Shown in pieces: positions 10,140 through 16,529 of a stretch of 64,000 nt of DNA (the stretch's first letter is position 1; each line of letters starts with the position of its first letter). The translations under genes and the position numbers were made by a program. The notes under the pieces were generated by a model, which was not told where the DNA came from, made no database searches, and saw only the letters and a program-made list of their open reading frames with translations. This stretch comes from Halobacteriovorax sp. GB3 (GTDB lineage: Bacteria; Bdellovibrionota; Bacteriovoracia; Bacteriovoracales; Bacteriovoracaceae), in NCBI RefSeq assembly GCF_028649655.1, contig NZ_JAQSLN010000002.1, positions 124,001 through 188,000 of the forward strand, given 5' to 3'.

Positions 10140-10174
10140 TTCATCCTGGATACTTTTCTAGCGTCGGTGCGTTA
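10140..10174 (+). repeat. Copy 1 of a 35-bp intergenic repeat
   Basis: Identical over 35 bases to 12017-12051 and a 31/35 match to 14802-14836. The shared core is TCCTGGATACTTTTCTAGCG. This copy lies in the 95-base gap between the SNF2 start codon (minus strand) and the stop of the 103-aa membrane protein gene, so it is in the SNF2 leader or promoter region. It has only one arm of the palindrome seen in copy 3. Confidence 0.85.
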
Positions 10175-12016: not shown

Positions 12017-12051
12017 TTCATCCTGGATACTTTTCTAGCGTCGGTGCGTTA
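12017..12051 (+). repeat. Copy 2 of the 35-bp intergenic repeat
   Basis: Identical to 10140-10174 and in the same orientation. It lies between the divergent starts of the 455-aa protein gene and the membrane ATPase gene, 42 bases upstream of the ATPase ATG. A short partial duplication (TTTTCATCC twice within 12006-12024) adjoins its left side, which could be a footprint of insertion or slippage. Confidence 0.85.
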
Positions 12052-12093: not shown

Positions 12094-14022
12094 ATGAACA
12101 TTCAAATTACTGATTATTTTACAAAATTAGGTCCATGGTTTTTAGAAGTATCGAATTTCTATAAAACGGGTACAACCGAACAGCTAACGAAAGAGCTTTT
12201 TCTAATCGGTAGCTTTATCCTCTTGCCTCTTGTCTACAATTTTTTGAAAAAGAAAATTATGAATCAAGCAGTTCGAATGAGACTAGGTTTGATTAATAGT
12301 ATTACATTGAGTTCTCTCGAGACAAGGGCTGCATTCTTTCTCCAGTGGGCGGGTCCATTTATTCCTTATGTTCTTGCTCTTGTGTTTTTAGTTGTCGCAA
12401 GAAAGATTCTAATGGAGACAGCATTATCTGATCTTGTATTTATACTTTCTTTTATCAAGTTTTATGTTGTCTACTTGATTTTTAATCAGCTATTTATTAG
12501 TGCGCTTAGACTTTTCTCTGAATTTGCCGGAGTCAAAAGAGAAAGAGATAAAATTCAAAAAATTCTAAATGATTCAAAACTATTCGCCAGATACTTATTA
12601 TTCTTTTTTGGTTCTCTTTATGCAATTGAGCTCACTTTAAAAAAGGGACTTGTATACGAATACGCTTTCAAAATTCTCTTTATTATTTTGATTGGTCTTT
12701 TTTATAAGTCACTAAGAAACTGGAGTGTTGAAACACAGAACATTCTTAAAAAATACTATCCTAAGATGGAAACAATTTTATTTTCAGGTAGTGCTTTCAT
12801 AAAAAATGTACTTCTTCCAGTGGGATTTCTTCTCGCATTTTTTCATTTCTTTTGGAAAAAGCTTAAAGGACAAATTTCTGAGTGGTCCATAACTAGAGCT
12901 CTCGCGACAAAGCTCTTTCAAAAGAAACTAGAGACTTCAGAACAGTTTGAAGAAACTAATATTGAGGATATCTCAAATCAATATCGTTCTGCATTTCAAG
13001 AAAATAGAATTTACGTTGAACAAAAAGTTGTAGATAAAATTTTTGCGGAAGTTGATGAATGGCTTGTCGATAAATCTGAAGAACATACTGTTGCAATCTA
13101 TGGCGAAAAAGGTGTTGGTAAAACACTGGCCCTTAATAAATTAGCAGAGCGTCTACAAGGAAAAGACTGTGAAGTTATTTATCATAAATTTAACGAGAAG
13201 GTTTCTACAAAGAAACAACTCTTTTCATTGGTCGCTGATCTGCTCGGAATAGAAGAGTTTGAAGAGATCTCTAAGATAATTGAGTTCGATCAAAAGAATG
13301 AAAAGAAAGTAGTACTATTCGATGATGCTCACCATCTTTTTCTGTCTGAATATGGAGGGCTTGAAGGAGTTAAAGCACTTTTTGAAATTCTAAATGCGAG
13401 AACTGAAAATATTTTTTGGGTTGCTTCATTTAATCAGTACTCTTGGAGCTATATTAGTCAGGTCTTTAAAAAGAATCAGTATTTCAGGGCCGTCTATAGA
13501 GTTGATTCTTTAAGTGAAGAAGCCTTACAAGACTATATTATGACAATTCATAATTCGACGAAGTATCAGATTAGCTATTCTGATATTATTCAGGCCTTAA
13601 GAACGAGTGACGAGACTGGATCGACTTCTTATGTTGAGACACTTTTTTTCAGAATGCTTTGGGATACGTCTAAGGGAAATGTCGCCTTAGCAACTCATCT
13701 ATGGTTTTCATCTTTAAGACCTTGGAGAAGGAAGGCGTTTAAAGTTGGCGTTCCTGTTAATAAGAAAACTGATTTTTTGTCGGGACTTTCTGATGATACG
13801 CTATTTATTTTTGCAAGCATTATGAGGCATGAGTCCATTCGAGCTAGAGAGTTGGTCGGTGTTACAAATATCAGTGAAGGAACTGTTAGACATGCACTTC
13901 GTATCGGATTAGAGAATGAAGTTCTAATTAGAAATGACGATGGAATTTACTCTTACAATGTCTCTTATCAATACCCACTAGTTAAACACTTAAAGACGAA
14001 GAATTTTATCTATGAAGAATGA
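12094..14022 (+). CDS. Polytopic membrane AAA+ ATPase with C-terminal winged helix
   Basis: Encodes 642 aa. The N-terminal 270 residues contain about six hydrophobic membrane segments. A cytoplasmic AAA+/STAND-like ATPase follows, with Walker A GEKGVGKT at 337-344 and Walker B VVLFDDAHH with Asp410 and Asp411. The C-terminal 80 residues look like a winged helix (RARELVGVTNISEGTVRHAL). The family is not one I can name. The 3' end overlaps the MscS-type channel gene by 11 bases, so the two are very likely made together. ATPase-gated or ATPase-sensed control of the channel is inference. The ribosome binding site is weak (GAAAG). Repeat copies flank the pair. Confidence 0.8.
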   Translation: MNIQITDYFTKLGPWFLEVSNFYKTGTTEQLTKELFLIGSFILLPLVYNFLKKKIMNQAVRMRLGLINSITLSSLETRAAFFLQWAGPFIPYVLALVFLVVARKILMETALSDLVFILSFIKFYVVYLIFNQLFISALRLFSEFAGVKRERDKIQKILNDSKLFARYLLFFFGSLYAIELTLKKGLVYEYAFKILFIILIGLFYKSLRNWSVETQNILKKYYPKMETILFSGSAFIKNVLLPVGFLLAFFHFFWKKLKGQISEWSITRALATKLFQKKLETSEQFEETNIEDISNQYRSAFQENRIYVEQKVVDKIFAEVDEWLVDKSEEHTVAIYGEKGVGKTLALNKLAERLQGKDCEVIYHKFNEKVSTKKQLFSLVADLLGIEEFEEISKIIEFDQKNEKKVVLFDDAHHLFLSEYGGLEGVKALFEILNARTENIFWVASFNQYSWSYISQVFKKNQYFRAVYRVDSLSEEALQDYIMTIHNSTKYQISYSDIIQALRTSDETGSTSYVETLFFRMLWDTSKGNVALATHLWFSSLRPWRRKAFKVGVPVNKKTDFLSGLSDDTLFIFASIMRHESIRARELVGVTNISEGTVRHALRIGLENEVLIRNDDGIYSYNVSYQYPLVKHLKTKNFIYEE

Positions 14023-14800
14023 TCAAGTTAATCAGGTTTTAGAGCTACTTAGAGTTCAAAACATTTTATTTTTAATTTTTGGAATCCTTCTTATTATAGG
14101 ATGTGTTCGAGTTGTTAATAAACTTGGAGAAAAACTCGCTGAGAAATTTGGAAAAAATCGTCTCGCTATTCTACAGGTTTCAACCATTATTTCTTTCAGT
14201 CTCTATGTCTTGGGGATTCCTTTTATTATTTATCTTGCTTTCAGGCCGCCGAGAGAGTTGATCTTTGCAATAGCAGGTTCTCTGGCTGTTGCGATCGGTT
14301 TTGCCATAAAAGATGTTGTCAGTTCATTTGTTTCTGGAATTGTTTTTCTCTTTGATAAGCCCGCTCAAGTTGGCGATAGGGTTATGATAGGAGATACCTA
14401 TGGTGAGATTACGAGTATTGGTCTTCGAGCAGTAAGATTAACGACTTTAGACGATAACGTTGTCACAATTCCTAACACAAAGTTTATTACAGAGCAGGTT
14501 AGTTCAGGAAATTTTGGTGCATTGAATATGATGATTGTAGTGAACTTTCATATTGCACTGGATGAAGATATTAATACAGTGACTGATATACTTAATGAAA
14601 TCGTTGTGACTTCTCGCTTTGCTTATCTTGCTAAGCCGATTAATGTCGTTGTTCAGGAAGTTGAGATTGCGATGAAGCTTGCTTATCGTTTTAGTGTGAA
14701 GGCCTATGTTCTCGATGTGAGGTATGAAAAGGCCTTTCAGACGGATATTGTAAAGAGAGCGAATAAAGTTTTCCTCGAGCGAGGAATTAAACGCCCCTAA
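14012..14800 (+). CDS. MscS-family mechanosensitive ion channel
   Basis: Encodes 262 aa, close to the E. coli MscS length. It has three membrane helices (about residues 18-35, 53-77 and 83-110). The third is the Gly/Ala-rich pore helix (AGSLAVAIGFAIKDVVSSF), followed by the beta-domain signature DRVMIGDTYGEI and VTIPN. It would form a heptameric inner-membrane channel that opens under tension. It is translationally coupled to the upstream membrane AAA+ ATPase, which is not a standard MscS context. The stop is 5 bases before the large inverted repeat (copy 3), which could act as terminator. Confidence 0.9.
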   Translation: MKNDQVNQVLELLRVQNILFLIFGILLIIGCVRVVNKLGEKLAEKFGKNRLAILQVSTIISFSLYVLGIPFIIYLAFRPPRELIFAIAGSLAVAIGFAIKDVVSSFVSGIVFLFDKPAQVGDRVMIGDTYGEITSIGLRAVRLTTLDDNVVTIPNTKFITEQVSSGNFGALNMMIVVNFHIALDEDINTVTDILNEIVVTSRFAYLAKPINVVVQEVEIAMKLAYRFSVKAYVLDVRYEKAFQTDIVKRANKVFLERGIKRP

Positions 14801-14801
14801 A

Positions 14802-14866
14802 TTGATCCTGGACACTTTTCTAGCGTCATTGCGTTAGACGCGCAGCCGCTAGAAAAGTATCCAGGA
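14802..14866 (+). repeat. Copy 3 of the repeat, forming a 20-bp-stem inverted repeat between convergent genes
   Basis: The left part (14802-14836) matches copies 1 and 2 at 31 of 35 positions. The arm at 14806-14825 pairs with 14847-14866 (CGCTAGAAAAGTATCCAGGA) over 20 bases with one mismatch. The 21-base loop contains a smaller hairpin, GCGT-TAG-ACGC. It lies exactly between the stops of the MscS gene (14800) and the convergent small secreted protein gene (14873), so it could serve as a bidirectional terminator. It could also be a complete small palindromic mobile repeat or paired insertion-sequence ends. Confidence 0.9.
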
Positions 14867-15396: not shown

Positions 15397-15413
15397 TTTT
15401 ATTGGGGATATTG

Positions 15414-16529
15414 GTGAAAGTAGTTCTTTTACATGATTGGCTAACTGGTTTTAGAGGCGGAGAGAGAGTTTTAGAAGTCTTTTGTGAGCTTTTTCCAGAT
15501 GCGCCACTTTATACTCTAATTTATAAAGAGGGCTCAACAAGTCCTATGATTGAAAATCGAGTCATTCATACTTCATTTCTTAATAGTATTCCTGGAGTTC
15601 ATAAGCATTATCGTAAACTTCTACCACTTTTTCCAAAAGCTGCAGAAGGGTTGAAAATAATTGAAGAGGCTGACTTAGTGCTTAGTTCATCTCACTGTGT
15701 GATTAAAGGTGTGAAGAAGCCTGCAGATTCGGTTCATATTTCATATATTCATAGTCCTATGAGGTATCTTTATGATCAATATGATGTGTACTTCGGTGCG
15801 GATGCTCCATTTTATCAGCGATTAGGAGCAAAGGTTTTTAAAAATTATCTTGTGAATTGGGACTTGGATTCTAATGCTAATGTAGATGTTCCAATTGCTA
15901 ATGCTGAGTTTGTGAGAAAGAGAATTCAAAAATATTACGGAATCGACTCTGGTGTTATTCACCCATTTGTCGACTTAGAGGACTTTAAATCAACTCAAGA
16001 GAATCCTCCTGAAAAAGAGGATTACTACGTAATGGTTACGGCTTTTGCTCCAAATAAAAGAGTCGATCTTGCGATAAAGACCTTCAATAAAATGAAGAAA
16101 CGTCTGAAGATTATCGGTTCTGGACAGCAAGAGGAATACTTAAAGTCTATTTCTGGCGATACCATTGAGTTTTTAGGGAATGTTTCAAGAGAAGAAGTCA
16201 TTGAAGGATTTGCCAAAGCAAAGGCCCTTATATTTCCGGGTGTAGAGGATTTTGGAATTACCCCATTAGAATCGATGGCAAGTGGTACACCAGTTATTGC
16301 CTATAAAATTGGTGGAGTCTTAGAGACTTTAACAGATGATGTTGCTGAGTTTTTCCACGAGCAAACAGAGGAAGAATTGCAAAGAGCTGTACTATCTTTT
16401 GAAAAGAGAGATATCGATCAATCTGTTTTATATAAAAGAGCTTCTGAATTTTCAAAGGAAGTTTTTAAGAAGAAAATTTTAGATCTAATTGAAACAACAA
16501 TGAGAAATAAAGGAAAGACCGATGCCTAA
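15414..16529 (+). CDS. GT4-family glycosyltransferase
   Basis: Encodes 371 aa from GTG at 15414 (preceded by GGGG at 15404-15407); a TTG at 15402 would add four residues. The N-terminus reads VVLLHDWLTGFRGGERVLE, and YIHSPMRYLYDQY lies near residue 115. The C-terminal domain holds the GT4 E-x7-E motif EDFGITPLE followed by SMASGTPVIAY. It is a retaining, cytoplasmic GT-B enzyme that should transfer a sugar from a nucleotide donor to a lipid-linked glycan. The HDWL/HSPMRY pattern is seen in mannosyltransferase-like capsule enzymes, but the donor is not certain. It opens the cluster and overlaps galE by 8 bases. Confidence 0.88.
   Translation: MKVVLLHDWLTGFRGGERVLEVFCELFPDAPLYTLIYKEGSTSPMIENRVIHTSFLNSIPGVHKHYRKLLPLFPKAAEGLKIIEEADLVLSSSHCVIKGVKKPADSVHISYIHSPMRYLYDQYDVYFGADAPFYQRLGAKVFKNYLVNWDLDSNANVDVPIANAEFVRKRIQKYYGIDSGVIHPFVDLEDFKSTQENPPEKEDYYVMVTAFAPNKRVDLAIKTFNKMKKRLKIIGSGQQEEYLKSISGDTIEFLGNVSREEVIEGFAKAKALIFPGVEDFGITPLESMASGTPVIAYKIGGVLETLTDDVAEFFHEQTEEELQRAVLSFEKRDIDQSVLYKRASEFSKEVFKKKILDLIETTMRNKGKTDA

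Follow-up and report, generated by a model that had tools for sequence, protein, structure and literature searches.

Organization of the locus

The window, a 64,000-nucleotide stretch of the Halobacteriovorax sp. GB3 genome, contains a membrane-anchored AAA+ ATPase gene followed by an overlapping gene for an MscS-family channel. The features of the pair and the adjacent repeats are collected in Table 1. The original prediction had placed two open reading frames here with an 11-base overlap, a Walker A motif at residues 337–344 and a Walker B motif ending in D410/D411, and each of these assignments proved correct.

Table 1. Coordinates of the gene pair, its domains and motifs, and the adjacent repeats in the window.
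Feature	Coordinates	Strand	Evidence
Gene 1, AAA+ ATPase, 642 aa, ATG start	12094..14022	+	ORF, Pfam, AlphaFold2, homologues
ATPase membrane domain, residues 30–258	12181..12867	+	Hydropathy and AlphaFold2 helices; predicted topology
AAA+ core and lid, residues 291–558, Orc1/Cdc6/TnsC-type	12964..13767	+	Structural comparison, Pfam AAA_22
Walker A, GEKGVGKT, residues 337–344	13102..13125	+	Sequence and homologue alignment
Walker B, VVLFDD, residues 406–411	13309..13326	+	Homologue alignment
C-terminal winged-helix domain, residues 560–640	13771..14013	+	AlphaFold2 secondary structure; alignment with Orc1/Cdc6 and TnsC C-termini
Gene 2, MscS-family channel, 262 aa, ATG start	14012..14800	+	Pfam, PDB profile match, class-wide profile search
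11-base gene overlap, gene 2 ATG within the end of gene 1	14012..14022	+	ORF coordinates
MscS beta domain PF00924, residues 101–163	14312..14500	+	Pfam
Copy of the 35-nt genome repeat preceding gene 1, outside the system	12017..12051		Repeat search
Palindromic copy of the 35-nt repeat, just past the channel gene	14802..14866		Repeat search

The membrane-anchored ATPase

The gene 1 product matched AAA_22 in Pfam (E 2.8e-8), and its AlphaFold2 model (mean pLDDT 85.5) comprised, in order, a bundle of long helices, the AAA+ domain, the lid and a C-terminal winged helix. The winged helix, which had been proposed originally, was thus seen in the model and aligned with those of Orc1/Cdc6 and TnsC. 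About six hydrophobic helices were detected by hydropathy in the membrane domain. Since six spans together with a periplasmic N-terminus would put the ATPase on the outside, one helix, probably the sixth, should be non-spanning; judging from hydropathy and the model, five helices may cross the membrane, with the sixth being re-entrant or interfacial.

The comparison of residues 291–640 with solved structures revealed similarity to the archaeal Orc1/Cdc6 protein 2qby_B (VIA; Z 15.7, rmsd 8.4, 286 residues) and to TnsC 8fcu_Q (Z 14.7, rmsd 4.6, 260 residues), with the winged helix included in both alignments. A long-form relative of the ATPase again led to the Orc1/Cdc6 and TnsC folds, and the hallmarks of the Orc/Cdc6–TnsC group (Walker A and B, lid, C-terminal winged helix) were all present in the gene 1 product. 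In Pfam, AAA_22 ranked first and NPHP3_N also exceeded its cut-off, while nSTAND and NACHT stayed under theirs. The AlphaFold2 model contained no repeat sensor domain, and its top folds were Orc/Cdc6. The earlier description of the domain as STAND-like was therefore not upheld, the nearest folds being Orc1/Cdc6 and TnsC-type AAA+; as modeled, the AAA+ region is an initiator-type fold and not clearly STAND. No model in NCBIfam, PADLOC or Pfam named the ATPase beyond its superfamily, and none in NCBIfam exceeded the cut-off for either the ATPase or the channel. The ATPase gene is single-copy in the GB3 genome.

The MscS-family channel

Pfam identified the MS_channel_2nd domain (E 1.3e-19) in the gene 2 product, and hydropathy indicated three hydrophobic segments. 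The solved relatives were, best first, 3udc (E 2.5e-21), 3t9n (E 4.8e-21) and then MscK 7uw5 (E 4.5e-19), and the channel aligned with solved MscS across profile positions 6–269. The MS_channel_2nd domain follows a pore helix and is preceded by N-terminal membrane helices, as in the MscS superfamily; by its sequence, the product is a true MscS-family channel. It shares with solved MscS proteins (3udc, 3t9n, E. coli) the three hydrophobic segments, the pore-helix region, and the beta and alpha/beta cytosolic domains. In contrast to them, it belongs to a subfamily tied to an ATPase and stops where the last 17 residues of E. coli MscS start, so that its cytosolic cage may lack a closed base, or be closed there in another way, and could offer a docking site. 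E. coli MscS functions without a partner protein. The GB3 genome contains five further MscS-type genes over the Pfam cut-off, and these are unpaired, because the ATPase is single-copy.

Conservation of the gene pair

Genome searches and a contig scan yielded 64 distinct ATPase homologues, namely 61 close ones with readable downstream DNA, L071, whose sequence ends 2 bases past the ATPase gene, and two distant cousins. An MscS gene came next on the same strand in all 61 close homologues; thus, the pairing is not due to chance. The two genes overlapped by 8, 11 or 14 bases in most homologues, and no natural ATPase–channel fusion was found, the genes being separate in all of them. When 47 loci were compared, the ATPase and MscS were near universal, and the next commonest neighbor family occurred in 8.

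The relationship also held in the opposite direction. A profile of the paired channel gave 42 strong matches in 125 genomes of the class, scoring at least 299 bits and each lying at the end of an ATPase gene; the next-best score was 105 bits. The subfamily was present in every ATPase-bearing genome (41/41) and in none of the 84 ATPase-less ones. Across these 125 genomes, the channel subfamily is found only with the ATPase, and the pair is obligate. The possibility that homologues of the ATPase rarely adjoin MscS genes was thereby dismissed, and the adjacency together with the reciprocity supports the conserved two-gene system that the original prediction had suggested.

Distribution and joint transfer

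ATPase homologues were found in 42 of the 129 genomes of the order and in 52 of 291 sampled genomes of the phylum Bdellovibrionota. Named strains with the pair include Bacteriovorax sp. BSW11_IV and DB6_IX. In addition, the ATPase was present in single MAGs that carry the labels Spirochaetes, Rickettsiaceae, Pseudomonadales and Alphaproteobacteria (L052, L064, L067, and L068). As a rule, the pair occurs in one copy per genome, many marine Bacteriovoracia included, and it is not essential in general, because it is absent from many related genomes. Two loci, L116 (G037:C197) and L117 (G047:C10), formed a branch of the pair that is divergent and shorter; G037 contains an ordinary pair besides the L116 one, giving two systems in one genome.

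On the ATPase tree, the window protein clustered with L037 and L002–L005, apart from that of its congener (G002/L014), and the nearest relatives of the window channel were the same set. Since both genes depart together from the congener, the pair has been transferred between lineages as a unit. The ATPase and MscS distances were correlated (rho 0.81; largest value in 999 permutations, 0.25), as is also expected from vertical descent alone.

Variation among the ATPase relatives

Most ATPase relatives are 1,010–1,050 aa long; ahead of the membrane domain, they carry a signal peptide and a helical region of about 370 aa, with one nearly invariant cysteine and another common one. Middle-length forms of about 750–780 aa were also observed, and the window ATPase and L005 (619 aa) have no N-terminal helical region. 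This region is probably a domain for periplasmic input that the protein can lose, as would have happened in these two forms. The membrane domain of the ATPase is large and variable in sequence, whereas the channel is highly conserved.

The Walker A motif is intact in nearly all relatives, and the Walker B aspartate is likewise kept. The Walker B motif ends in DE in most relatives and in DD in the window protein and most of its clade. In L037, NQ replaces DE, and in L067, the Walker A lysine is replaced by methionine; the channel is still kept in both. Given the glutamate-to-aspartate change in Walker B and the substitutions in L037 and L067, hydrolysis may be slow or dispensable. ATP binding is thus the better-conserved predicted function, hydrolysis being less certain, and the motif variation would fit nucleotide sensing better than a motor. 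Arginine 465 is conserved in most relatives, which is no more than suggestive of ATP hydrolysis by an oligomeric ring or filament.

Fusion of the ATPase module to a CPA2 antiporter

In two cousins, L118 (G223:C13) and L119 (G206:C85), which are proteins of about 1,407 aa, a CPA2-type Na+/H+ exchanger domain (PF00999, E ~1e-28) is followed by an extended run of helices and then by the AAA+ module of the pair (cousin versus pair module, hhalign E 1.2e-15). An MscS gene overlaps the 3′ end of both CPA2::ATPase genes. In G223 (L130/L118), these genes form an operon with the order exchanger-like gene–TrkA–TrkH–CPA2::ATPase–MscS, on one strand and nearly touching. TrkH (E 7.8e-68) and TrkA (E 5.4e-44) were recognized among the upstream genes, and the polytopic exchanger-like gene had no Pfam match. 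TrkH is also present beside the CPA2::ATPase gene of G206, whereas the full operon was found in G223 only. Both genomes, which belong to one genus of the phylum, also contain an ordinary pair, and among 144 genomes of that class, no others had the CPA2 fusion.

In several marine relatives, a trio of RimB-like, RimK-like and aspartoacylase-like genes lies directly upstream of the pair or divergent from it (L051:2237–4134, L060:2212–4112, L054, L056, L057, L061, and L062). In L051 and L060, about 10 bases separate the last gene of the trio from the ATPase. The trio possibly serves osmolyte metabolism. The links to the Trk/CPA2 operon and to the trio favor a role in ion and solute balance. The original prediction had offered an osmotic control device and a membrane-acting defense effector as its two guesses, and the former became the likelier one through the Trk/CPA2 operon of the cousins.

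Proposed mechanism and alternative explanations

We consider it somewhat more probable than otherwise that the pair is one membrane system of osmotic or ion homeostasis, in which the nucleotide state of the ATPase sets channel opening. Translational coupling would ensure that both proteins are made together; the transmembrane helices of the ATPase would lie against the channel, and the AAA+ and winged-helix domains would adjoin the cytosolic part of the channel from within the cytosol. The tension at which the channel opens would then be governed by ATP binding, hydrolysis and nucleotide depletion; for example, the channel could be held shut in energized cells and released otherwise. In most relatives, the periplasmic helical domain of the ATPase would provide an outside input, which the window form would have lost. 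The data, which are those of genetic linkage and fold, show the obligate pairing, the conservation of the nucleotide-binding motifs, the co-inheritance and the connection of the ATPase module with K+ transport genes; we infer the contact between the two proteins, the direction from ATPase to channel, the signal and the mechanism, including the ATP-driven gate of the original prediction. A more specific proposal, which we put forward tentatively and regard as falling short of probable, is that a membrane-anchored Orc/TnsC-type AAA+ protein docks on MscS, with its ATP state setting the opening, and that the same module was separately joined to a CPA2 antiporter, adding an ATP-dependent layer over osmotic release.

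The signal might also run the opposite way, with the channel as a tension sensor and the AAA+ and winged-helix domains as the output, acting, for example, as a chaperone, as a regulator of transport or as a DNA binder tethered to the membrane. The resemblance of these domains to the DNA-binding Orc1/Cdc6 and TnsC proteins agrees with this, as does the fusion to CPA2 in the cousins, given that such a module might act on several transporters. However, conservation in the neighborhood does not extend to any regulator-like target gene, the channel is the better-conserved partner, and the large membrane domain that anchors the ATPase has the channel as its sole constant partner; we therefore consider a reversed signal unlikely. 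A somewhat less likely explanation still is that the pair is a split, ATPase-bearing MscK/MscM, the ATPase supplying the periplasmic domain and outer helices and the AAA+ domain being an added module. MscK is among the best relatives of the channel, and the long forms of the ATPase have an MscK-like order of signal peptide, helical periplasmic domain of about 370 aa and membrane helices. The periplasmic and membrane parts of the ATPase showed no similarity to E. coli MscK, although in a comparison of sequence only, as the matches of the structure search were all taken by the AAA+ domain.

An anti-phage or conflict effector, in which the ATPase would sense infection and open the channel so that the cell is depolarized, appears highly improbable. 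The patchy distribution of the pair and its horizontal movement as a unit would suit such a function, and PADLOC returned a weak match to the AAA proteins of mads_8 (E 1e-5); this match, however, was incomplete and did not go beyond the AAA superfamily level, and PADLOC gave only partial, weak matches, none of them real, for the pair. The neighbors are mostly housekeeping genes, with neither a repeated defense family nor defense enrichment among 93 neighboring proteins. Matches to SspA/DndA, mREase_IV and the like involved single proteins and were discarded. The usual presence of a single copy per genome, also in many marine Bacteriovoracia, and the location of the cousins in a K+ transport operon likewise argue against an effector, and this part of the original prediction found no support.

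Relation to known systems

Bacterial MscS channels are regarded as passive, single-protein safety valves. With an obligate AAA+ partner, some bacteria would be placing this valve under energy-dependent control, which raises the question of whether ATP state can set mechanosensitive gating. Searches of the literature, with most subscription journals outside their scope, returned nothing relevant on an MscS–AAA ATPase, STAND or NTPase pair or on ATP-dependent gating, and the family databases contained no such pair. The exclusive joint occurrence of the two genes in numerous relatives of predatory bacteria suggests a previously undescribed kind of ATP-controlled mechanosensitive channel. With just two genes, the pair is also well suited to reconstitution.

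In Kef proteins, the regulatory domain at the C-terminus is normally of another kind (KTN). The cousins resemble the Kef/CPA2 and Trk systems through the joining of their ATPase module to a CPA2 antiporter and through the adjacent TrkA/TrkH and MscS genes, whereas an antiporter domain is missing from the window pair. The presence of one ATPase module in both the MscS pair and a CPA2 antiporter hints at a general regulator of ion efflux. With Orc1/Cdc6 and TnsC/TniB (AAA_22), the ATPase shares the core, lid and C-terminal winged helix, which co-align (Z 14–16); unlike them, it is membrane-anchored, paired with a channel and placed in no replication or transposition context.

MscK has a periplasmic domain of about 500 aa and 11 TM ahead of its channel domain (PMC9653487). 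The channel domains of MscK/MscM and the pair are close relatives (E 4.5e-19 to MscK; profile E 5.3e-16), and a helical domain in the periplasm and additional membrane helices occur in the whole paired system as well. In contrast to MscK/MscM, the pair consists of two genes, includes an AAA+ ATPase and resembles the large channels in sequence only within the channel domain. Its classification as a single-chain channel of the MscK/MscM type was rejected, since the channel and the periplasmic/TM part lie on separate genes in all homologues. One study (PMC8067016) describes enrichment of mscS in marine Bdellovibrio groups, in passages that leave an ATPase pair unmentioned.

Repeats and flanking genes

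The pair had been described as sitting between copies of a short repeat. The repeat is real: the window holds four copies of a palindromic 35-nt element (TCCTGGATACTTTTCTAGCG...), where 0.00 would be expected, and its sites include 10140–10174 in addition to those in Table 1. It is not specific to the pair, as it has 10 copies genome-wide, only four of them near the pair, and a repeat-bounded cassette was rejected on this ground. The copy just past the channel gene might serve as a terminator. Next to the pair, a glycosyltransferase gene is located at 15402–16529 of the window, and a 69%-identical relative adjoins the pair of L039 (L039:3965–5056), there on the opposite side.
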